Source of the DNA: a virus
Virus record (IMG/VR): IMGVR_UViG_3300025128_000232
Location: 1 to 28,597 of that record
Length of the DNA: 28,597 bases
Direction: 5' to 3' (one strand)
Position numbers and translations under genes: made by a program. Under the pieces are notes generated by a model. That model did no database searches. It was not told where the DNA came from and saw nothing but the letters and a program-made list of their open reading frames with translations. The number at the start of each line of letters is the position of its first letter. Positions within the stretch are counted from its first letter, which is position 1. Shown here piece after piece: positions 4,601 through 26,977 of the stretch.

Positions 4601-6770
4601 CGTTACCATTTGTAGTTATGCTATGAGTACCTGAACTAACATCAGTAAATGTAGTAGAAGCATGAGCACCATCACAATGCACTAATAGTTTTGTATTACT
4701 ATCATTAGAAAAGGCTGTTGTGGATGGGGTAAAACTTGTTCCCCCATAGCGAGCAGTATTGGATATTCTTATCTCATCCATATAACCTTTCAGTTCATTA
4801 TAGTTACCATCTCTATTGTTAGCAATACCAAGCACAGAAGATACTGCAGGCAACGCATCACCATCAGTTACAGTGGCATCAATAGTGCCATCTACATACC
4901 ATCTGAAAGTAGTACCCGATCTTTCTAAAGCCAAATGATACCATCTATGTGGTTGGAAACTTGTTGCTGTTGGAAAATCAGCAATCTCTGGTGAGTTGCA
5001 ATAAAACTTTACAACACTATTACTCTGATAGATAGACCATCTAGAACTTGATGATGCCCACTGACCTAGTAAACCAAAACCTGGATGACTAGTATGAATG
5101 TGGTCAAAGTTGACCCAAAATTCCATTGTGAAGTTATTAGTGCCAAAGTCCCAATCTGACGAATCGGCAACAGATAAACTATCCCCACTACCATCAAACA
5201 TTACACACCCAGTTCCAAATTTAGGTCCAATGATATGTTGACCACCAGTGGCATCTTCGACCCAACCTACTGGGTTGTTTACTACTCTTTTGTTCGCTGC
5301 GTTACCGTTAGCAGTTAGGCTATGTCCTGTTCCACCTACTCCAGTCCAACTACTATCTGTAAAACTAGTACCACCATTTGAACCATCCATATGTAGTAAT
5401 AGTTTAGTATCTTTGTCAGCAGTATAAGCTGCGGTCGGTACAGAAAACACATTTGAATAACGATTAATGTTAGAAATCCTTACTTCATCTACATAACCAT
5501 TCCAATATCCTGACAGAGTAGAATCATTTTCTTCAAAGGCTCCAATTAAAAGATCCCTAGACGAATTCCAAATAGTAGTCATATCTGAATCTACTGTGCT
5601 ATCCACCATTACACCATTCTTAAAAGCTCTTAAAGTAGTACCAGTTCTAGTCAAAGCAAAATGAGTCCAAGTATTTTGAGTCATGCAATTAGCAAAGTTC
5701 CAAGAGTGCTCATCACTACCAGTTTTACTCCATGTAAATCTACCTTGACTATCACTGGTGAGATATACATTCCATCCCTTCTTACCATTCACCGCATGAC
5801 TTGTATGAGAGAACAATCTTTGTGTTCCGCTAGCAGTTGTATTATATACCCAGGCCTCTATAGTAAAATCACCTGTTCCAAAGCTAAAATCTGAACTATC
5901 CGGAACTCTTAAATAATCCGAATCTCCATCGCATTGTAAAGATGCAGTTCCAAATTTCTTTACACCGGTATCTGTATGAGCAGTCCCTGCAGCAGTAAGA
6001 CTTGTATGAGGAACATGATAATCTGCATCAGTAAAACTAGTAGCAAGTACATCATTAGAGAATGGTAGATGAAAACCGTTTACACCAAATGTGACTGCTT
6101 CTTTTATGTCAGTAGGATTCTTTGGTTGCCACTGGTTTGTAAGTGTATTAGTTTCACCAAAGTATTCTGGACCTAGCGCTTGACCATCAATAAAATATAA
6201 TTCTGCAAGATAGGACGTATTCCATTGAGAACTGTCACCTTGTTGCCCAATCAACTGGATTACATTGTTGTTTATCTGAGACAGAGAATTAACCGCAGGA
6301 CTTAATAAAGTCGCTGATCTTATAGCCGCCCTTTCACCATTTACATATATAATGCTCCTATCAGCGGCCGTGGATAGAGTCGTATTCCATACCCACACGA
6401 TATGATACCAAGCTGTCGGATCATTGAATACCATTTCAGTATGTGCCCTACCCCTACCACTACCACCACCTTCATAAATCTCAGCAGAGAGATAATTATC
6501 AGGATCAGTACCCGCTCTAAATACTAATTCATCTTGGAGGCTTGAATTATTCCATGCGCCAAATATTGCACCATAATTCCCATCTGATACACCACCATTG
6601 CTCGTTCTCTTTACCCATGCACTATAAGTCCATGTCTTTCTATTACCAGCAGTCGCTGGTGTCCAACTTAAATAAGCACTACCTGAGTTATGAGCAACAT
6701 TTGGAAACCGCAACGACTTTAATTCAAACCCATCGGATGGTGTGGAGCCGCCAAGAACTATATTAGTCAT
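1608..6770 (-). CDS. Giant LamG-array / SPRY / DUF7483 virion protein (1720 aa)
   Basis: Probable adhesin or fibre protein that binds cell-surface glycan. Five concanavalin A-like (LamG, jelly-roll) units can be seen at about residues 40-200, 265-450, 515-690, 735-905 and 955-1125. Four share the pattern FDG-x-G-D-x-L-x-V-x-x-S-x-D-F-x-F-G-T-x-x-F-T-x-E-x-W-V, and each ends with a strand like NTKLLLHxDG. A SPRY-like domain follows at about 1195-1335 (SGKWYWEI; later GDIIGVALDMDNGTITFYKN). The C-terminus from about 1390 resembles DUF7483 (VTGVGFQPDFTWIKAR; SWNWKAG). It lies 4 nt after the 254-aa gene with no clear ribosome site of its own, so coupled translation is likely. Receptor binding is inferred from the folds; the ligand is unknown. 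Confidence 0.8.
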   Translation of the reverse strand: MTNIVLGGSTPSDGFELKSLRFPNVAHNSGSAYLSWTPATAGNRKTWTYSAWVKRTSNGGVSDGNYGAIFGAWNNSSLQDELVFRAGTDPDNYLSAEIYEGGGSGRGRAHTEMVFNDPTAWYHIVWVWNTTLSTAADRSIIYVNGERAAIRSATLLSPAVNSLSQINNNVIQLIGQQGDSSQWNTSYLAELYFIDGQALGPEYFGETNTLTNQWQPKNPTDIKEAVTFGVNGFHLPFSNDVLATSFTDADYHVPHTSLTAAGTAHTDTGVKKFGTASLQCDGDSDYLRVPDSSDFSFGTGDFTIEAWVYNTTASGTQRLFSHTSHAVNGKKGWNVYLTSDSQGRFTWSKTGSDEHSWNFANCMTQNTWTHFALTRTGTTLRAFKNGVMVDSTVDSDMTTIWNSSRDLLIGAFEENDSTLSGYWNGYVDEVRISNINRYSNVFSVPTAAYTADKDTKLLLHMDGSNGGTSFTDSSWTGVGGTGHSLTANGNAANKRVVNNPVGWVEDATGGQHIIGPKFGTGCVMFDGSGDSLSVADSSDWDFGTNNFTMEFWVNFDHIHTSHPGFGLLGQWASSSSRWSIYQSNSVVKFYCNSPEIADFPTATSFQPHRWYHLALERSGTTFRWYVDGTIDATVTDGDALPAVSSVLGIANNRDGNYNELKGYMDEIRISNTARYGGTSFTPSTTAFSNDSNTKLLVHCDGAHASTTFTDVSSGTHSITTNGNAKVVAPKIGTGCNRTNGGDNGLYIPGASCPWAEFGSGDFTVEAWVSLDNISTNNQQFFTHRNSVNSGDWVFWWDSSNGLQWSGSSNTLSQGGTTGWASNTWVHIAASRASGVNKIFVNGTVVATNSSATQDYSATASLFIASYSTGTGSHNTSGGNIAGFMDQVRITPGKALYTSNFTPSTTAYTDDIDTRLLMHFDGGGPGTAGSDTNVGQGTYYHDSATNAIYYENNLPKYKSNINFDGTGDYISLPGSSDFDFGTGAFAIEFWFWVKDSHAHTALIHSDNYYVGGNNGNWAFDCYQEEVRFNVYNGTGAVGSVDSTGTKIECGVWNHVAFCRDGSGNGRIFINGALSSSVDTDLNGEDIEDGKNGVEIGGNISYAGPGDLNGGMDNIRISNSARYTSAFTKPTDRVTSDSNTVFLLNSDFADGGLGADHSGNYNSFTPTNLSSHDMMLDSPMNNFCTWNPIDIFAANLAGVVSEGNLKIVDSTNHIAYRGTFGLKSGKWYWEIYIIAAAAPANCRTGVCKTNTYGTSSGTGPVDMGVSYTYDADGQKTIPGSTGSYGATYTAGDIIGVALDMDNGTITFYKNSATQGQMATGIIAEVAPLVAEGNGSNQFNTVANFGQDSSFAGTVTAQGNQDANNKGDFYYAPPSGYLALCTDNLDNPSITDPSKHFNTVTYTGTGSELAVTGVGFQPDFTWIKARALTYNHRLFDVVRGVTKEVYTNVNNAEVTDAQSLKSFDSDGFTLGTGSGSNPSNTMVSWNWKAGTSFDPATAGTVASGSGSANATAGFSIVKYPGSASDVTVGHGLSQAPELIFIKNLDAAVSWPVYVGPLGNTKRLELNDPYYQQATGHWVNTSPTASVFTLDGGVEGINDSGDDFIAYCWHSVEGYSKVGDYTANGSATDGPFVYTGFKPAYLLVKSTSVSASWDVTDGVRNTYNPQGWRLAVNGTGIGENIAVVDFLSNGFKVRTTSGSYNDPANATYFYLAIAESPFKTSNAR

Positions 6771-6774
6771 GCGG

Positions 6775-7539
6775 CTAACTCACATTCAGCTGTCGGCCTA
6801 CCTCATACATATTTGTGCCGTCACTTCTCCACACAAATATATCTTTTGCGGCTGCCGTAGTTGTTAGGGTAGGAGCAGTTCCTCCCGCCCATTTAAATAC
6901 TGTGTTCCAAGATGCTGTTCTGCCACCTGTGCCATCTTGGATAATAATAAGAGAATAAAAGGCACCATCAACCATTTGGCTGGGTGCATCAAAAGTAGTG
7001 TTAGCCGTAAGTGTTAGTGTAGCAACTTGATTGGCAGTAAGTGCCCAATCCTGTGTTGCATCAAAAGTGAGTGCCGTGTTATTGAAGTTCTGTTGTGCAG
7101 TCCATTCGTTTGCAGCTGCAGTAGAAACTGCTGTTACGGTTGCCCATTCAACAGCAGATGCACCACTATTCATCTTTAGAGTTTGACTAGCCGTTCCTTT
7201 AGGCAATCTCACATAGTCAGTGCCGGTGTAAGTTAAAATATCACCAGCAGCATCAGAGCCCATAGCAATCTTTGCACCAGTTACTTGATTATCACCAATG
7301 TGTGCTGTATCAATACTTCCGTCTGTATAGTGTTCTGAATTAACAGCGTTATCAGCTAACTTTGTGCCGTCAATAGCATCTGCTGCTATCTTTGCTGTTG
7401 TTACGGCAAGGTTAGCAATGGCTGCTGTATCTACTGCATCATCTGCTAACTCGCTTGCTGCTACGGAGTTTGCCGGGAGTAATGCTGATGTAATAGCATC
7501 ATCGGCTATACCAAGTGTACCTATCTTTGTTAGTGCCAT
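6775..7539 (-). CDS. Short fibre-like virion protein (254 aa)
   Basis: Residues 10-100 are a run of near-repeats of the form LADDAVxTAAIANLAVTTAKI, the periodic pattern of trimeric fibre shafts. They are followed by the GSDAAGDILTYTGTDYVRLP module shared with the 330-aa protein. The C-terminal part (about 140-254) is a compact beta domain with TFDATQDWALTANQVATLTL and a closing WRSDGTNMYEVGRQL, a pattern common at the ends of phage fibre-like proteins. The ribosome site is AGGATAGGA before the ATG. It sits between the 64-aa gene and the giant LamG protein, so it may be a short fibre or an adaptor for the large one; this is inference from order only. Confidence 0.7.
   Translation of the reverse strand: MALTKIGTLGIADDAITSALLPANSVAASELADDAVDTAAIANLAVTTAKIAADAIDGTKLADNAVNSEHYTDGSIDTAHIGDNQVTGAKIAMGSDAAGDILTYTGTDYVRLPKGTASQTLKMNSGASAVEWATVTAVSTAAANEWTAQQNFNNTALTFDATQDWALTANQVATLTLTANTTFDAPSQMVDGAFYSLIIIQDGTGGRTASWNTVFKWAGGTAPTLTTTAAAKDIFVWRSDGTNMYEVGRQLNVS
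7251..7270. repeat. 20-bp direct repeat, copy 2 (fibre module)
   Basis: Identical to 792-811. It lies in the module shared between the 254-aa and 330-aa fibre-like genes. Confidence 0.85.
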
Positions 7540-7937: not shown

Positions 7938-10900
7938 TATTCAGCCAACGCCATAGTTCTAAAGTCTCTAAGAATAGGTGGTTTAGCTGTATTCAAACTT
8001 TTCATTACAATCTTAATAGCAAACGAACCAAAACCTTCTAATGGTAATGTTGTTGTAGCAACATCATCATTCTTACCAGCAGTATATTCATACTCACGAA
8101 AATCGTTTATATCTAGAGATAGTGGAGTAGTAACATCAGGAATACCCGTTGTATTAAAAGGCACCCATTCAATTTCCTCAAAAGGTGTTTCTGAGTTAGA
8201 CTGTGCTATCCTATAATAAACTTCTAGAGAAGCCCCTGACTGAACCGTTGCATCAAAAATAGTTTTGATAGCAGTCGCTTCCTGTTTCAAAGATATCTCT
8301 TTAGTTATATAGATGGCTACATTATTATCACCAGAAGGTTGTTTAGAATCCTTAAAGGTACTTAAACTACCTGAAAGAGTTCCCACATCGCTTGAAGAAT
8401 CAACCTGGTTGATTCTGTTAGCAATACAAATAACTCCCATCTGACCTGTGCCCAAATCAATAACAGGAGAAACAGAATCTTTATCAGTAGTCAATATCGT
8501 ATCAAACCGTAAAGACTTATTACCTGATAACTCGTTTGTCTCGTTTACCTGTGAGCAAATAACTTTTGGTGAACCAAACAAATAGTTTTCATACAAAGGA
8601 ACTTCAAAGGAATCAGCATTTGCTGTTCTAGAGAATGGTGTTTGTGTAGAACCCAAACTCATACCAGAAGTTACCTGAGCATTTGTAGTTGCCGTCGCAG
8701 TTGTAAACTCCATAACCTTAACTTTAGGATAGAATGTATCATAAGATATATTTTTAGTTATTAGTGCAGCACTCCCACCACCAGTAAAAGTCTTACTAGC
8801 ATTAGTAGTAGTTGTGATTTCAAAACTATCAAACTCTACACCAGAGATGGATGTATGTGTCTTGTTTATTTCTGTAAGCGGAATGCCTGCAAAGACATAA
8901 AACTTAACCACACTACCATCTTCGTGTGTAGTCGCTGTAGTACTATCTGAACCTCGTGTACAACCAGTCAAGTTATTACCTGACTTACCAGTATACTGAA
9001 TAACCTCATTGTCTATCTTAATAAATCCAGCCGATGCAAAGTTAGTCGCAGAGGATAATGTAATAGTTGTATCTGCCGCAGACAATTCACCACTCTCATT
9101 CAATGTCGTATCAGATATTTCAGATGCAACATCTCTAATAACAACATTGTTCAAAGTAGAGTGCATACCATGACTATAGTATTTGACTTTAACTTTATTT
9201 GAACCCGAGAAAGTTTCTAACGGATTCTTTGCAAGATATTTTGTTTTTCCATCAGACTTGGCAACAAACCCAGCTCGCCTATCCAACTCTTGGTTGACTG
9301 TATATACATGACCGGTTTTAGTTGTATCAAACTTTGCTCTGTATAAAGAAAACTTCAAATCTTCAAACTGCGATGTTGTCCATGCGGATGCGTTTTGAGA
9401 TTTAAACAGAGAACCCAGATACGGTTGTTCTGATACTAACTGAGTTCCACCAACATCTGTCTCAGTCAATCTTGATATCCAAATGTTGTAGTCCAGAGAA
9501 TCAGAAAAAAGAACTACGGCATATTCTGTAAATGACCTCAGATGTATCGGATAGTCAAATGTAAATGTTGTTGCAGTAGCTGCTGTGTCATCTGTATTTA
9601 CTGAAGATGCTGGTAATACTACTGTTGCCCCAGGGATAGCTTCCCAAGCAGGATAACCATTGACCACTGGCCGTAATTGTAATGTTACTGGTTTGGGATT
9701 AGTGGAGGTATCTTTAGTTGCAAAGAAAACATCTACCTTTGTTAGAAAAACTCCATCATCCTGAAACTCAGGATCTTCTATACGAATAGTCTGTGCCAAA
9801 GGATCTCTCCAACCATGAAACACATCCTTTTCGACCGTTGATACTCTGCCCGTGGTCGTATCTGTGCCCTTTCCTACGTTAGATTTGATCGTGCGCTCTT
9901 TGGTTTCAAGGTCTGTTCTTATAAGTTTGCCATTTCGTAGAGAGTTTACACGTTCTTGCTTAATCTGTTTCTGGCCAAACGCATTATACATAGCCTCACC
10001 AGAAGTAAATACTGTTCCAGCAATTCTATTATTAGAAGAACTATCGGTTAAACGGAAAGTTCCTTTACCCGTAGCAAAACGCATTTCATCACTATTAGGA
10101 ATCTTAAATACACACGCCAGTTGTCCCATGGAATCTGTAATAAGTGGTTGTCCATTAACACTATCAGATACCGTTGGATATATTGTAGTATTATATGTAG
10201 AACTAGTAGGTTCAGGATCTGTATAGGATTTATGCTCTGTTATCGTTGTGCCTTTTGAACCACGTGCGCTGATAGTAAATGTTGTACTAGTTTTAGCTGA
10301 ATATGTCATCGTTTCTGAACTTACATAAGTAGTTCCCGAAGTATTCTGCCAACGATGTTGATCACCCGAACCTGGTGAAAGGTCCCCGGCATCAAAGGTT
10401 CTTTCTCCATCAACGGCCGCAACAATTTGACTCAATGTAATCTCACCCGTATCAGGAAATCCTGCCGTAGAGGTTACACTAATTGTTGTATCTGTTTTGG
10501 ATACATTAGCAGTCAACGCGGTTGTTGTTTGAGAAACACCAATAGGTCTCACATGAGCATTTACATCACGTTCATTAAAGAAAGCATAAACCCGAGTATT
10601 CGGTTTCATGTTTGTAGCCGTTACTGTAACATCTCTCTCACGCATCCATGGAATAACTTCCATAGTCGTTTCATCACCAGCACTTCTATTCTGTCTGAAA
10701 GTCTCTAGGTCAAAACGCTCCCCTTGTCTTGATTGATTGAGAAAACTCTGAACCTTTACTGTGCCGGACGTCGTGACGCTAGTAGTAGTTTTAACATCGT
10801 TGCGCACGGCAAACAAGTTACCTTTAGCAGCCGAACCATTAGGATTTCTAGTACTAGTATCACGATACCGGGTACCCTTTACTGCCGAACTTTTTGATGT

Positions 10901-22710: not shown

Positions 22711-25277
22711 TAGTCTACGTCCTCGTTATGTAAGTTTCTAATCTTTTCAGCATTTACATTTACATCGGGTGCGGTACTTCCAGCAAACGGATTGTTTTGT
22801 GGTTTCTCTAATCTGAATCCAGGTATTGAACCACCAGTCATACCCTGACTATGTGTATGAGTTGCATCAACCAGTGAACCCCAAGTACCTATATCACCTT
22901 CGAGGTTTGTATATGGACCAGCCGTAAATGCTGTCACAGAGTCTGCTGCTTTGAAAGCAAAGTTTACTCTTGCCTGTAAAGTATTTCTAGACTTGGGTGA
23001 ATCGGTTAAGTCTACAGTGGTACCACCTTCATGTACTATAGCACCTCCAGGCAATTGTAGATTACCTGCAAAGTCACCACCACCAGCCATACCTGCAAAA
23101 GGATCACCATGAGGTACTTTCAAAAGTATTCTACCAGAGGAAGCTCCAAAGGCACCTGCCTCAAGATGTATCAAACCACCGAATGGTTCGTCTTGACCAC
23201 CCATGCCATTATAGCCTGTGCCGGGTTCTGTATCTGAAGCGTATCCATGTGCCTTTGCTGTTATTTGAGCAGCACTCATATTGATAGAGTTTTCCCGTGC
23301 CTCGATATTTACATTGTGACCTCTCAGGTTCAAGTCTCCCTTGGCGTGTATGTCGATGTTATGGTCAGACACTAAACGAATATTCCATTTGGCACCTAGA
23401 GTCATTTGGTCATTACACCTAATCATCATTTCATCATCGCCTGTCCAAAGTATCTGTCCCTTCACATAAAGGTAGTCATCATGGATAGTCAGGTTATGAT
23501 TGTCACCTGTAACCTTTGTAGTTTTATTACCACTGTCATCAATCTCGTAGTAAGTACCCGAGCGATGCATCTGGTTGATTCTCTCTGCTCCAGGAGTATC
23601 ATCATATTCCATGATGTGCCCCGACTCAGATTCATAGACATGGTTGAAGGGATATATTGCGGCATTCGCTGAAGTAGGCTCACTCCAGTAATGTGTCATT
23701 GTTTCTTGTGTGCGATCCCCACCACCAAAAGCATCTTTGCCCCCAGGGACAAACATACCATGTCCCATGTTTATCCACTTCTCTCTTGTCTCTGCTCTTG
23801 TCTCCAAAGAAACATGAGCATCCAGAAATACTGCACCGCCACCAAGATATTCAGAAAACTTTGGAGCCCCTACTGGATATTTCCAGTCAGCAGAAGTAGC
23901 TTGAGGATTGGTTTTGACATTAACAGAGTATTTTGTTAGTGGACTAGTTGAACCTATAGTCCCCGGACCACCAATACAACTACCATCAGACGAATTCAAA
24001 ACAAGAGTAAATCCCGTCACAGGATTACCGGTCGACGTTACTCTAAAACGTCTACCATTCAACTCTTGCATTCCCTTGACACCAGAGATAGTTACAACAT
24101 CATCTGTCTCTATAGGTTCATAAGATGACCCAGCTTGTGTGGTAACTGTTATAGGTGTGGTACTAGTTATATTAGTTATTTTCAACCCACCCTTGGCAAG
24201 TCTATTCACATCGTCTACAGGTATGGCAACTCTTTCAGATGCTTTCACATCAGAGAATTTTCTTTTACCACCCACCTTATCTCTTACAAACCCATCATCA
24301 TATAATGCCTTTATTCTGTTATACATAGAAGGACCATACAAGTCCTTTATAGATTTTTTCTGACAATACTCTAATCGTGGATATGGTGTTCTATGATTTA
24401 TACCAACCTCAGATATATAGGGATAAGTCATATCATCCCCATCATAATAACCTGTAGAAATAACATGACCCAGATTGACACTATTCTCGTTATCTGCGAA
24501 GCCAGTTTGATTCCAAAAGTTAGGTGAATCTGTAGGGGGACCAACTAGTCTCCTAGTAGTTCCAAAAGTTTCATATAGGGCATCAGTATGAGTTACTTGA
24601 GAAAAAGATTTTGCACTACCTTTAGGTAAATCAAGAGCGGCGTGTCTTGCTTTAGTATATGAAACAGCTGTACCATAAATTATCTCATCACCATACATCT
24701 TCATACGGTCGACTGCACCATCACCCCAGTTGGCGTGAGGTTCTAGATAATCTGCAACGGGAGTAATAGAACCACCGTCGGTAGATACGAAAGTAACTCT
24801 TGAAGGCGGGAATGGTAACTCATCCAAATATAGTTTCTGAACATTAGATCCTGTTTGAAATGTCGGGTCAAAGAAACCTTTTTTATCTGTATCTCTACTC
24901 TTACCCCAGGACCCCTTGATACCATCGCCCTTTAGAATCTCATCTTCACCTTGAGAAGGTCGCACGTTCTTACCAGGAAGAGTGCCCAACACAATCCAAT
25001 CTTGCATCAGGTCGACATCACGGGCGAACCCAACTACCCAAGTACCTGTCTCAATGCCGGGATTACTTTCACCCACCCCTGACATAGAATGACCACCTAC
25101 AGGCATCATGCACTGACACCAAGGTAAATCTTTTGTGGGAATTTTTATTTTATCTTCGGTGTGGTATCCAAGCCATCTGACTTTCACTCGACCCATCTTG
25201 CTCGGGTCATTACGATCTTCCACAACTCCCATTCCGAGTACAGTTCCATCACGTCCAAAGAATTCAGTATTATTCAT
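22710..25277 (-). CDS. 5: Baseplate hub spike protein gp5, without lysozyme domain
   Basis: Central spike of the baseplate hub (855 aa). The N-terminal OB-fold matches T4 gp5: GVVEDRNDPSKMGRVKVRWL, IPTKDLPW, MSGVGES, and W-IVLGTLPG near residue 100. The C-terminal part has HVYESESGHIMEYDDTPGAE and GTYYEIDDSG near 545-590 (T4 HTMETESGHIQEFDDTPGQE), followed by a beta-helix-like region. The T4 lysozyme domain is missing. In its place is a long region with, at about 365-455, a beta unit resembling FCCH-like phage repeats (ITNITSTTPITVTT; VKGMQELNGRRFRV). The start is taken as ATG 25277; a TTG at 25283 lies against the promoter. There is no Shine-Dalgarno, and the late octamer ends 6 nt before the ATG. 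It ends at TAATG with the Gly-rich gene. Confidence 0.92.
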   Translation of the reverse strand: MNNTEFFGRDGTVLGMGVVEDRNDPSKMGRVKVRWLGYHTEDKIKIPTKDLPWCQCMMPVGGHSMSGVGESNPGIETGTWVVGFARDVDLMQDWIVLGTLPGKNVRPSQGEDEILKGDGIKGSWGKSRDTDKKGFFDPTFQTGSNVQKLYLDELPFPPSRVTFVSTDGGSITPVADYLEPHANWGDGAVDRMKMYGDEIIYGTAVSYTKARHAALDLPKGSAKSFSQVTHTDALYETFGTTRRLVGPPTDSPNFWNQTGFADNENSVNLGHVISTGYYDGDDMTYPYISEVGINHRTPYPRLEYCQKKSIKDLYGPSMYNRIKALYDDGFVRDKVGGKRKFSDVKASERVAIPVDDVNRLAKGGLKITNITSTTPITVTTQAGSSYEPIETDDVVTISGVKGMQELNGRRFRVTSTGNPVTGFTLVLNSSDGSCIGGPGTIGSTSPLTKYSVNVKTNPQATSADWKYPVGAPKFSEYLGGGAVFLDAHVSLETRAETREKWINMGHGMFVPGGKDAFGGGDRTQETMTHYWSEPTSANAAIYPFNHVYESESGHIMEYDDTPGAERINQMHRSGTYYEIDDSGNKTTKVTGDNHNLTIHDDYLYVKGQILWTGDDEMMIRCNDQMTLGAKWNIRLVSDHNIDIHAKGDLNLRGHNVNIEARENSINMSAAQITAKAHGYASDTEPGTGYNGMGGQDEPFGGLIHLEAGAFGASSGRILLKVPHGDPFAGMAGGGDFAGNLQLPGGAIVHEGGTTVDLTDSPKSRNTLQARVNFAFKAADSVTAFTAGPYTNLEGDIGTWGSLVDATHTHSQGMTGGSIPGFRLEKPQNNPFAGSTAPDVNVNAEKIRNLHNEDVD

Positions 25278-25283
25278 ATACAA

Positions 25284-25291
25284 TATTTATA
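25284..25291 (-). promoter_or_regulatory. T4-type late promoter abutting gp5 start
   Basis: Exact TATAAATA on the minus strand followed by TTGTAT and the gp5 ATG. The 6-nt spacing is identical to that of gp25. It lies 22 nt after the CCA end of the tRNA-like gene. Confidence 0.75.
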
Positions 25292-25313
25292 ATGAAAATA
25301 CTAAATAGAGTTT

Positions 25314-25413
25314 TGGCTCCGGGAGGTTGGCTCGAACAACCACTTGACTGCTTTCGCAATAGTCAACACCCTATAAACGGTAGGGCTGCTTTACCAAGTT
25401 AGCATATCCCGGA
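25314..25413 (-). tRNA. tRNA-Asn-like (GUU) with 27-nt variable arm; noncanonical
   Basis: All tRNA elements fold without mismatch. Acceptor TCCGGGA pairs with TCCCGGA (7 bp), then G73 and encoded CCA. T8 A9 are followed by D stem TGCT/AGCA with a GG-containing loop, anticodon stem CCCTA/TAGGG, and T stem GGTTG/CAACC with loop TTCGAGC. The 7-nt anticodon loop CCGTTTA puts GTT at 25378-25376, the Asn anticodon. U1-A72 and G73, and the first three pairs TCC/GGA, agree with E. coli tRNA-Asn as I recall it. Three things are abnormal: C instead of U at 33, U instead of a purine at 37, and a 27-nt variable region (25368-25342) with a 6-bp stem TTGACT/AGTCAA capped by GCGAAAGC. Long variable arms belong to Ser, Leu, Tyr and Sec tRNAs, not Asn. 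It begins 8 nt after the stop of the synthetase-like gene, on the same strand. It could be a working tRNA or a tRNA mimic. Confidence 0.85.
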
Positions 25414-25421
25414 GTATTTTT

Positions 25422-26276
25422 TTAGTGCATATTTTTTATCACATCCCTAACATTATACATCTGCTTTGCTCGTATAAATCGGGTCATCCCAATGCCACCT
25501 CCGTATCTGGGAATAAAGTCGTGATCCAGAAACTCATCTAGTTCTTTCTCAACTCTATTCTTACCAAACAGTCCAAAAAGTAAGTTTGCATATAGTCCAT
25601 CAGATATAGTATGAAACATATTTCGCATCTCATCTTTATCTGACGACCTTTCAGCTGAACCTATAGTTTCCTGTTCCATGATGATAACATCTATCTTGGC
25701 GGCAGTTCCGTCACCGTTCTGTTTCATGTTCCAGAAGGGACTTGTATAGTTGGGGAAGTTCTTTATCATACAAGGGCGGCCACCCCAGCTACGACACATA
25801 TCTCTTTCGTGGTCGTGGTCTAACTCCTCAACATGAAATGTCTCGGCCCAGTCCTTGTAGTCCTTGGCCACCACTTGGTCTCTTGCACAGAACTGAACGT
25901 GCTCAAGAAGTTCCTTTTCAAGTTCCTCCAAATCCGACACAGTTCCGGGTGCCTCGAACTCAAACATGGGAAAAATAGTTTCGTGACGACCTTCTACTAT
26001 ATTTGGTTCTTGTCTATAAGATGTGCTCATACAAAAAAACCCCTTCGATGAGGGGTTTCGTAAAAGCTCATACTCCAACCACATTTGGCCGGTTTGTGGG
26101 AGAGGCCATACCTCTCCATTATAATTGTAAGTTGCTACAGTTTCCGGGTCTTCGCAGGCGGCCAGGATGCTCAATCTATTTTGTGTATGTACCTCTTGAA
26201 AGCCTTTGGCCAAAAAAAAACCACGTAGTAACGTGGCCGATTCAGTAAACTCTCTAGGTGAGATTATTGCAGTCAT
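25422..26276 (-). CDS. AspRS/AsnRS-family class II synthetase-like protein, catalytic core only
   Basis: 284 aa. Class II aminoacyl-tRNA synthetase fold. Motif 2 is YRQE (87-90) with R97-H98 and FPMFEFE (102-108). Motif 3 is GGGIGMTR (259-266). LPQTGQ (59-64), GSAER (206-210) and the ending NVRDVI (275-280) are AspRS/AsnRS features. The ATP-binding arginines of motifs 2 and 3 are present. The motif 1 region (AKGFQEVHTQN) has Gln where the family has its invariant Pro. There is no N-terminal OB-fold anticodon-binding domain; synthetases of this family usually exceed 400 aa. The GGGIG(x)(S/T)R form of motif 3 also resembles asparagine synthetase AsnA, so free-Asn synthesis is the main alternative to tRNA charging. 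It is driven by a late promoter, with GAGGA ahead of the ATG, and is followed at 8 nt by the tRNA-like gene. Two terminator-like hairpins lie in its coding sequence. Confidence 0.85.
   Translation of the reverse strand: MTAIISPREFTESATLLRGFFLAKGFQEVHTQNRLSILAACEDPETVATYNYNGEVWPLPQTGQMWLEYELLRNPSSKGFFCMSTSYRQEPNIVEGRHETIFPMFEFEAPGTVSDLEELEKELLEHVQFCARDQVVAKDYKDWAETFHVEELDHDHERDMCRSWGGRPCMIKNFPNYTSPFWNMKQNGDGTAAKIDVIIMEQETIGSAERSSDKDEMRNMFHTISDGLYANLLFGLFGKNRVEKELDEFLDHDFIPRYGGGIGMTRFIRAKQMYNVRDVIKNMH
26033..26058 (-). terminator. Terminator-like hairpin inside synthetase gene (2nd)
   Basis: On the coding strand AAACCCCT pairs with AGGGGTTT (8 bp, 6-nt loop), and the T run continues to seven T in total. 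This is the shape of an intrinsic terminator, placed at codons 73-82 of the synthetase-like protein. Whether it stops transcription while ribosomes are present is unknown. Confidence 0.55.
26212..26236 (-). terminator. Terminator-like hairpin inside synthetase gene (1st)
   Basis: On the coding strand CCACGT-TACT-ACGTGG (6 bp, 4-nt loop) is followed directly by nine T. It has textbook intrinsic-terminator form but lies at codons 14-22 of the synthetase-like protein, about 65 nt from the predicted transcription start. Confidence 0.6.
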
Positions 26277-26299
26277 ATATATGTCCTCAAAGTTTTATC

Positions 26300-26307
26300 T
26301 ATTTATA
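26300..26307 (-). promoter_or_regulatory. T4-type late promoter for synthetase-tRNA unit
   Basis: Exact TATAAATA on the minus strand, ending 23 nt before the synthetase-like ATG. The leader of about 18 nt carries GAGGA. This suggests the synthetase-like gene and the tRNA are made late, together with virion proteins, rather than early like most phage tRNAs. Confidence 0.75.
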
Positions 26308-26327
26308 CAAACCGCAGACGCAGCAAG

Positions 26328-26354
26328 GCCCCCAATCTTTACGGGAGAGGGGGC
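26328..26354. repeat. GC-rich inverted repeat (GCCCCC/GGGGGC)
   Basis: Six perfect G-C pairs closing a 15-nt loop, in the spacer between the His-rich gene and the late promoter of the synthetase-like gene. It lacks a U-tract. It might still act as a weak terminator or RNA-stability element for the His-rich gene transcript. Confidence 0.5.
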
Positions 26355-26370
26355 ACTTGAGGACTCACTG

Positions 26371-26406
26371 ATTATGTAGTTGGCCCGTGGCTCATCATTA
26401 CATAAT
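26371..26406. repeat. AT-rich inverted repeat (ATTATGTA/TACATAAT)
   Basis: Perfect 8-bp arms at 26371-26378 and 26399-26406 around a 20-nt spacer. Could be an operator-like palindrome or the base of an RNA hairpin. No protein partner can be named. Confidence 0.5.
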
Positions 26407-26530
26407 ACTCTAGGTAAGATTTTTCTCTATAATATTGCCTACTGTATGTGTAGGACTTTTATTCCTATTATTGCAATTTACAACTATCTAATGGGATCGC
26501 TACTCCCACTAGATTACTTTTCTCGTTTCA

Positions 26531-26977
26531 CTACCTATCTCCATGCCAATGTTGTTGGTGCCCATTCGTATGATGTGTGTGTGACATATGTCCATGCCAG
26601 TGCGGTTGATAACAGCTTGGACTATGTACATGGACAGTACCGTGATGGTCATATTGGGGCGGTATAACGTATGGACCGACAAACCGACCATTTACACATT
26701 GACTCTGCGGGTATCGTACACAGTTATAACCATACTGATTACAACCATGTGACATATAATAACTTACACAGTCAACATATGCAGAATGTCCGTGGCCATG
26801 ACCATGATTCGGAACGGGATGATGTGGATAGGGGTTGTGTGGAACACTAAACAACCAACCCAAGTTGATGCTCCACTGTACATCACCTGCCTTTGCCGTG
26901 CTCAAGTATAACATACTCAAGCTAAACAAAACAGAAACCAATAAGGCCTTGTAAAATTTCAAACTATTCAATCTCAC
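26531..26977 (-). CDS. Secreted His-rich protein
   Basis: Function unknown. The chosen GTG start at 26977 has GGAGA about 10 nt upstream; an ATG at 27007 would add ten residues and overlap the 98-aa gene further. The N-terminus is a clear signal peptide: basic residues, a hydrophobic core (ALLVSVLFSLSMLYL) and an AKA cleavage site before GDV. The mature part of about 118 residues contains 21 His, in clusters such as NHGHGHGH and HWHGHMSHTHH, with five Cys and many Tyr and Pro. Such composition suggests binding of Zn, Cu, Ni or Fe in the periplasm or on the envelope. The gene is the last of a run of small overlapping genes. A host-derived metal-binding protein or a periplasmic lysis or exclusion factor are alternatives. 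I recognise no named family. Confidence 0.7.
   Translation of the reverse strand: MRLNSLKFYKALLVSVLFSLSMLYLSTAKAGDVQWSINLGWLFSVPHNPYPHHPVPNHGHGHGHSAYVDCVSYYMSHGCNQYGYNCVRYPQSQCVNGRFVGPYVIPPQYDHHGTVHVHSPSCYQPHWHGHMSHTHHTNGHQQHWHGDR

Follow-up and report, generated by a model that had tools for sequence, protein, structure and literature searches.

Tandem terminator-like hairpins inside a synthetase-like gene of marine phages and distant bacteria point to a probable intragenic attenuator

A synthetase-like gene of a T4-like cyanophage carries within its own coding sequence two hairpins followed by U-tracts, T1 and T2, which are probably selected intrinsic terminators and are predicted to form an intragenic attenuator; we give this reading a probability of about 0.6. 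The gene lies in the window, the 28,597-nucleotide stretch of DNA analysed here (positions 1 to 28,597 of IMG/VR record IMGVR_UViG_3300025128_000232), whose phage origin is seen in gp5-, gp6- and gp8-type baseplate genes and a CobS-like gene. Observed here are the presence and positions of T1 and T2, their statistical excess, their covariation, their breadth of occurrence and the pyrimidine-gene neighbourhood of the cellular relatives. Intrinsic terminators inside working genes are usually taken as prediction noise, and here two appear to have been kept by selection in marine phages and distant bacteria. A compact attenuator that works without a leader peptide would offer a clean system for studying transcription-translation coupling in phage-infected cyanobacteria.

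The gene (25422..26276, minus strand) encodes a 284-aa protein with a class II aminoacyl-tRNA synthetase catalytic core of the AsnRS/archaeal-AsnA kind and without an anticodon-binding domain. It belongs to phrog_29758 (PHROG 8e-121) and matches Pfam tRNA-synt_2 (6e-12). The closest annotated relatives are those of Prochlorococcus phages P-SSM2, P-SSM5 and P-SSM7, and the homologue in P-SSM2 and P-SSM7 is annotated as 'tRNA ligase' (T4-GC 194). Motifs 2 and 3 of the class II core are present, as in AsnS, but the N-terminal anticodon-binding domain of AsnS is missing from this core-only protein, which scores 32.8 bits against an NCBIfam cut-off of 342.6. Its architecture resembles that of archaeal asparagine synthetase A, likewise a stand-alone AsnRS-like core, but the score for PRK06462 (18.3 bits against 389) does not reach the NCBIfam cut-off. 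An AlphaFold2 model (pLDDT 90.7) found human AsnRS as the top solved fold (VIA-align Z 27.6, 249 residues, rmsd 2.2, 24% identity) and archaeal AsnA as the best match among stand-alone cores (Z 24.4). PADLOC gave no match to the gene as a member of a defence system, and no plasmid relatives of it were found. Its location varies by phage: it follows gp23 and tRNAs in P-SSM7, lies in a metabolic region of P-SSM2 and precedes gp5 in the window.

The start codon is preceded by a T4-type late-promoter-like motif, TATAAATA (26300..26307, minus strand), 24-31 nt upstream of the ATG, and by a Shine-Dalgarno-like GAGGA (26284..26288, minus strand) between that motif and the ATG. In 47 of 70 homologues, TATAAATA or a CTAAATA-like motif occurs no further than 65 nt from the ATG. 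In 17 of 70 phage loci the late-promoter-like motif is immediately preceded by a strong ordinary terminator, about 24-43 nt before the ATG, so the cassette is in many cases shielded from transcription that arrives from upstream. In the window the gene is preceded by some 250 nt of sequence (26277-26530) that appears to be non-coding and contains a GC-rich hairpin, GCCCCC...GGGGGC, without a U-tract.

Both elements consist of a G+C-rich stem directly followed by a U-tract, and both lie in frame within the ORF, whose translated frame thus runs through them in the manner of pyrBI. T1 (26212..26238, minus strand; codons 13-22, ORF nt 39-65) is composed of a hairpin at 26238-26219, GGCCACGT-TACT-ACGTGGTT, and a T9 run at 26220-26212; its 8-bp stem overlaps the T run by 2 nt, and the segment has a minimum free energy (MFE) of -11.0 kcal/mol (z -3.7). 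T2 (26033..26059, minus strand; codons 73-82, ORF nt 218-244) has a hairpin at 26059-26036, (G)AAACCCCT-CATCGA-AGGGGTTT(T), with a stem of 8-9 bp, and a T7 run at 26039-26033 (MFE -12.2, z -2.7). The U-tracts thus occupy ORF nt 57-65 and 238-244. An earlier note on this DNA had described these hairpins and U-tracts on the coding strand, and its positions, codon numbers and the Gly-Phe-Phe encoded at each are all correct. Rfam gave no match at gathering score in the window, including to PyrR, T-box or riboswitch attenuators, and a relaxed search of 25200-26600 returned only a sub-threshold STnc100 match, on T2. Another strong hairpin in the gene, GGAGAGG...CCTCTCC at about 26117-26099, was not conserved as such by RNAalifold across 58 homologues.

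Such elements are nearly absent from the other phage coding sequence examined. A scan of the window yielded only three strong minus-strand terminator-like sites, namely T1, T2 and one that is intergenic. The P-SSM7 genome (182 kb) has a dozen clear hairpins with T runs of at least 6 between genes, and its T1 is the only hairpin of -6 kcal/mol or lower with such a run inside an established gene, the other two sites in coding sequence falling in hypothetical ORFs only about 25 and 44 codons long. Other ORFs of at least 150 aa in the fetched phage and cellular loci served as controls. In the phage loci these controls held one site in 126 kb and the target gene 97 in 51 kb, which makes T1/T2-like elements about 240-fold rarer in neighbouring ORFs; in the cellular loci the controls held two in 188 kb and the target gene 26 in 52 kb. 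In a published survey of the genomes of these phages, a terminator prediction was accepted only if it was intergenic or lay no more than 10 bp from the end of an ORF (PMC3037559).

Conservation was assessed in 71 phage homologues below 97% identity, drawn from 80 IMG/VR loci and named phages, of which the 65 genes of the main clade were used. Under the null model synonymous codons were permuted within each gene, keeping the protein and the gene's codon usage, and a T1 call required a T run of at least 6 and a stem of -4 kcal/mol or lower at homologous codons. By these shuffles, which like the pair counts below remove relatedness among the homologues only in part, T1 is present in 65 of 65 genes against 1.55 expected, T2 in 44 against 6.5, and both together in 44 against 0.15. 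The Phe codons at T1 are TTT in 130 of 130 cases, as compared with 574 TTT and 335 TTC (63% TTT) elsewhere in the same genes. Neither element occurs in a small clade of three homologues (L032-L034) or in the jumbo-phage homologues L084 and L085; the L085 protein as a query of viral contigs found no relatives.

Covariation was examined in 59 homologues below 88% identity. The T2 helix is paired in 90% of cells, with 60 double-change cells against 24 ± 6 in shuffled alignments (none of 500 as high), and sliding its 3' arm by one column lowers pairing to 61-67%. In its main register T1 is paired in 97% of cells, with 15 double changes against 2.5 ± 1.3 (again none of 500 as high). Slid registers covary far worse than the true one, and a mixed set that includes other T1 registers is weaker in any single register, as expected. 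T1 is diverse (registers 97-100, 35 distinct stems), and the hairpin is kept as the peptide over it changes, for instance among VDLLRSFF, VGRLRSFF, VTLLRDFF, TTALRSFF and TGSLRAFF; the T run is 8 long in 50 of the 59 relatives. Covariation, together with stems kept under changed peptides, is strong evidence for selection on an RNA structure that stands directly before a U-tract, the signature of a terminator. The loss of stems in homologues, which the earlier note had named as speaking against its reading, did not occur, since pairing persists with different codons and even different amino acids. Its argument that two such structures were unlikely to arise by chance is likewise borne out by the shuffles, the covariation and the control ORFs. 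In most phages the T1 stem is modest (-6.5 kcal/mol) beside the intergenic terminators of the same phages (mostly -12 to -16), so termination at T1 may be weak.

GTDB genomes yielded homologues of about 50-60% identity, many of them from Patescibacteria and the rest from Bacteroidota (Aureispira), Alphaproteobacteria (Midichloriaceae), Dependentiae, Pasteurella atlantica and further groups. Some of the best GTDB matches (L171-L175, L236) resemble phage contigs in MAGs. Among 66 non-redundant cellular genes, elements of T1 type occur at the homologous position in 11 (0.48 expected) and of T2 type in 14 (0.61 expected), and many cellular homologues carry neither. On the protein tree with alignment-based labels, T1 requires at least 12 changes and T2 at least 22; shuffled means are 30 and 32, so the trait is patchy but clustered. 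In Midichloriaceae a T1 with T9 (-11 to -12 kcal/mol) stands in the gene that opens a run with pyrF-pyrE-pyrD-prs.

In the proposed mechanism, polymerase would start at the promoter just upstream and reach T1 after about 60 nt of the ORF, normally too early for a ribosome to have caught up, and a fraction of transcripts would end there; with its modest stem and long U-tract, T1 would act as a partial throttle. Surviving transcripts would reach T2 about 180 nt later, where a close ribosome would melt the hairpin, making T2 a coupling-dependent gate that lets transcription continue only if translation keeps pace. The gene would in this way throttle its own output, with a separate leader peptide unneeded. 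In the E. coli measurements of Li et al., translation cost a terminator placed 30 bp into an ORF only about 10% of its efficiency, and terminators in the first ~100 bp stayed mostly effective even when translated; the first ribosome caught polymerase after about 100-200 nt, and terminators further on were repressed by coupling (PMC4824070). The U-tracts of T1 and T2 fall on either side of this boundary, which suggests the two-stage device. The idea in the earlier note of an attenuator built from the gene itself stands in outline as the best reading; its relief of termination by a trailing ribosome suits T2 and, by these measurements, suits T1 less well unless RNA polymerase pauses. RNAalifold on 58 homologues gave no clear conserved alternative (antiterminator) pairing, with T2 strongly supported and T1 blurred by register shifts.

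Several known systems share parts of this arrangement. In E. coli pyrBI, low UTP slows polymerase and the ribosome keeps up, and in E. coli rph-pyrE an ordinary protein-coding gene is the translated leader of a pyrimidine attenuator. As in rph-pyrE, a normal coding gene is translated through ahead of or at the attenuator, but there the terminator follows the end of rph, whereas here the terminators lie 20 to 80 codons into the gene, and terminated transcripts would therefore be non-stop mRNAs. With pyrBI the shared features are a translated frame (pyrL) overlapping an intrinsic terminator, prevention of termination by a close ribosome, as predicted here, and a pyrimidine context, here that of the cellular relatives; transcription-translation coupling at pyrL has been described (PMC5021804). 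Unlike pyrBI, in which a short leader ORF of its own precedes the enzyme genes, the window gene has two tandem terminators inside the enzyme's own ORF, the only frame over T1 and T2 taken as coding, whose ATG lies 24 nt behind the late-promoter-like motif. Terminator-like signals inside the coding regions of E. coli narY and rsxC have been studied with ribosome stalling (PMC5021804), but those are single genes of one species, whereas here two covarying sites span phages and bacteria. Salmonella mgtCBR also has two attenuators in series that are read by translation, but within a long leader region with small ORFs (PMC3641672).

The pyrimidine context of the cellular relatives makes UTP the likeliest signal for the attenuator, although we put this forward tentatively, at rather less than even odds; low UTP would then slow polymerase, let the ribosome catch up and allow the gene to be expressed, as in E. 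coli pyrBI. A UTP-responsive attenuator of the pyrBI type is plausible by analogy, given the pyr clusters and the genomes that have PyrF and mostly no PyrB or carbamoyl-phosphate synthetase. Against the attenuator model, the neighbours of the window gene are the tRNA-like gene described below and baseplate genes (gp5), not pyr genes, and a UTP-sensitive pause site was not identified.

Other explanations of T1 and T2 differ in how much of this evidence they accommodate. The terminators might merely cap expression or block upstream read-through wherever the gene lands, its enzyme being wanted at a low level, with no regulation by translation or UTP. The position of T1, where ribosomes cannot relieve termination (PMC4824070), and the different genomic places of the gene in P-SSM7, P-SSM2 and the window would suit such a constant cap. 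We nevertheless consider it unlikely, as a strong ordinary terminator is already in place just upstream at 17 of 70 loci, T2 sits where coupling normally suppresses termination and would be a poor constant cap, and low expression could evolve more simply through a weak promoter or ribosome-binding site. Programmed transcriptional slippage, giving frameshifted products or restoring the frame, is far less probable. T8-T9 runs after a hairpin do resemble known slippage stimulators, and the T1 run of P-SSM5 is T7 where the near-identical P-SSM2 has T8. In that record (L083, HQ632825, ~6010-6060) the T7 breaks the reading frame and the deposited CDS starts after the break; the T7 may reflect a sequencing error in the homopolymer or a genuine off-variant. 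Apart from this one broken record, however, the in-frame run is kept across relatives, the T7 runs at T2, frequently broken up (TTTTTC), make poor slippage sites, and slippage does not require hairpins at two sites. Least credible is the view that the elements have no RNA function and arise by coincidence from constraint on the protein (Pro...Gly-Phe-Phe and Leu-Arg-x-Phe-Phe codons in AT-rich genomes): conserved Phe-Phe pairs give T6 for free, but shuffles that preserve the protein expect 1.6 T1 where 65 were observed, and the amino acids of the T1 stem vary while pairing is kept. This explanation is refuted for T1 in phages and is possible for cellular T2 in single genomes.

It is also improbable that T1 and T2 serve to tie expression of the tRNA-like gene that follows the ORF to translation of the partner synthetase. 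This class II tRNA-like gene (25314..25413, minus strand), with GUU in the anticodon position and a long variable arm, was missed by ARAGORN and found by a covariance model built from relatives' tRNAs (CM R1, 56.1 bits). Such a tRNA-like gene, seen at homologous sites in about 55 phage loci, begins no more than about 15 nt from the stop codon of most phage homologues, which favours such coupling. The earlier note had proposed that the elements make the downstream tRNA dependent on translation, a purpose that is not supported, since T1/T2 are present in phages that lack an adjacent tRNA (L009, L026, L027, L062) as well as in cellular homologues, and T1 is missing from distant phages that do have the tRNA. 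As its presence does not track T1/T2, the tRNA-like gene is probably not part of the attenuator. Its cloverleaf is 99% paired across 23 relatives and combines a Leu-like body with GUU at 34-36, G73, A, C, G or U at position 33 and always U at position 37 (our own numbering); the variable position 33 and constant U37 are unlike ordinary elongator tRNAs, and the RNA may be non-decoding, with the neighbouring enzyme charging it. For cells, a tRNA-dependent pathway was considered and rejected: in four cellular genomes the phage tRNA model found no class II tRNA-Asn(GUU), only ordinary class II tRNAs, with an ordinary 75-nt tRNA-Asn in two. In P-SSM2 (L081, AY939844) the tRNA-Asn PSSM2_199, annotated at 8825-8910, appears misplaced by ~2 kb; the tRNA-like gene actually lies at ~6813-6900, directly behind the 'tRNA ligase'.

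The intragenic attenuator that we favour is accompanied in cells by a recurrent pyrimidine neighbourhood. Neighbours of the cellular homologues include OMP decarboxylase/orotate phosphoribosyltransferase (19 loci), PyrD (11), PyrE (5) and PRPP synthetase (3); in Midichloriaceae (L200, L201, L206) the gene is followed by pyrF-pyrE-pyrD-prs, and in P. atlantica it lies between pyrD and pyrF-pyrE. Neighbourhoods with pyrD, pyrE, pyrF or prs were also noted in L221, L186, L189, L198, L222 and others. Among 34 host genomes PyrF was kept in 27 and PyrD in 19, and the early steps exceeded the cut-off in two (PyrB), one (carbamoyl-phosphate synthetase) and one (PyrC); PyrB and carbamoyl-phosphate synthetase were found in 14 of 14 control genomes. 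Several Bacteroidota have PyrC-like proteins below the cut-off (200-261 bits), which makes the loss of PyrC less sure. AsnS was over the cut-off in 5 of 11 genomes. These bacterial relatives hint that the gene makes pyrimidines rather than being an ordinary tRNA synthetase, and its AsnRS/AsnA-like core might supply N-carbamoyl-aspartate or dihydroorotate by an unrecognised reaction. The gene would then point to an unrecognised route into UMP synthesis in genomes without its first enzymes. The sober alternative is that genome reduction alone, with salvage, explains the missing early steps; Haemophilus has lost the first pyrimidine steps and retained pyrDEF. On a joint reading, which is speculative and rather doubtful as a whole, an AsnRS/AsnA-core enzyme would replace carbamoyl-phosphate synthetase and aspartate carbamoyltransferase, and perhaps dihydroorotase, in many reduced-genome bacteria, marine phages would carry its gene, and a tandem UTP-sensing intragenic attenuator would be common to phages and cells. 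A PyrD homologue lies just upstream of the synthetase-like gene in five phage-like contigs (L070, L079, L112, L123, L174). A lyase_1 (argininosuccinate-lyase family) gene adjoins the homologue in L190, L212, L245 and L247, with an amidohydrolase as well in L190 and L245, and these neighbours could be part of the same pathway.
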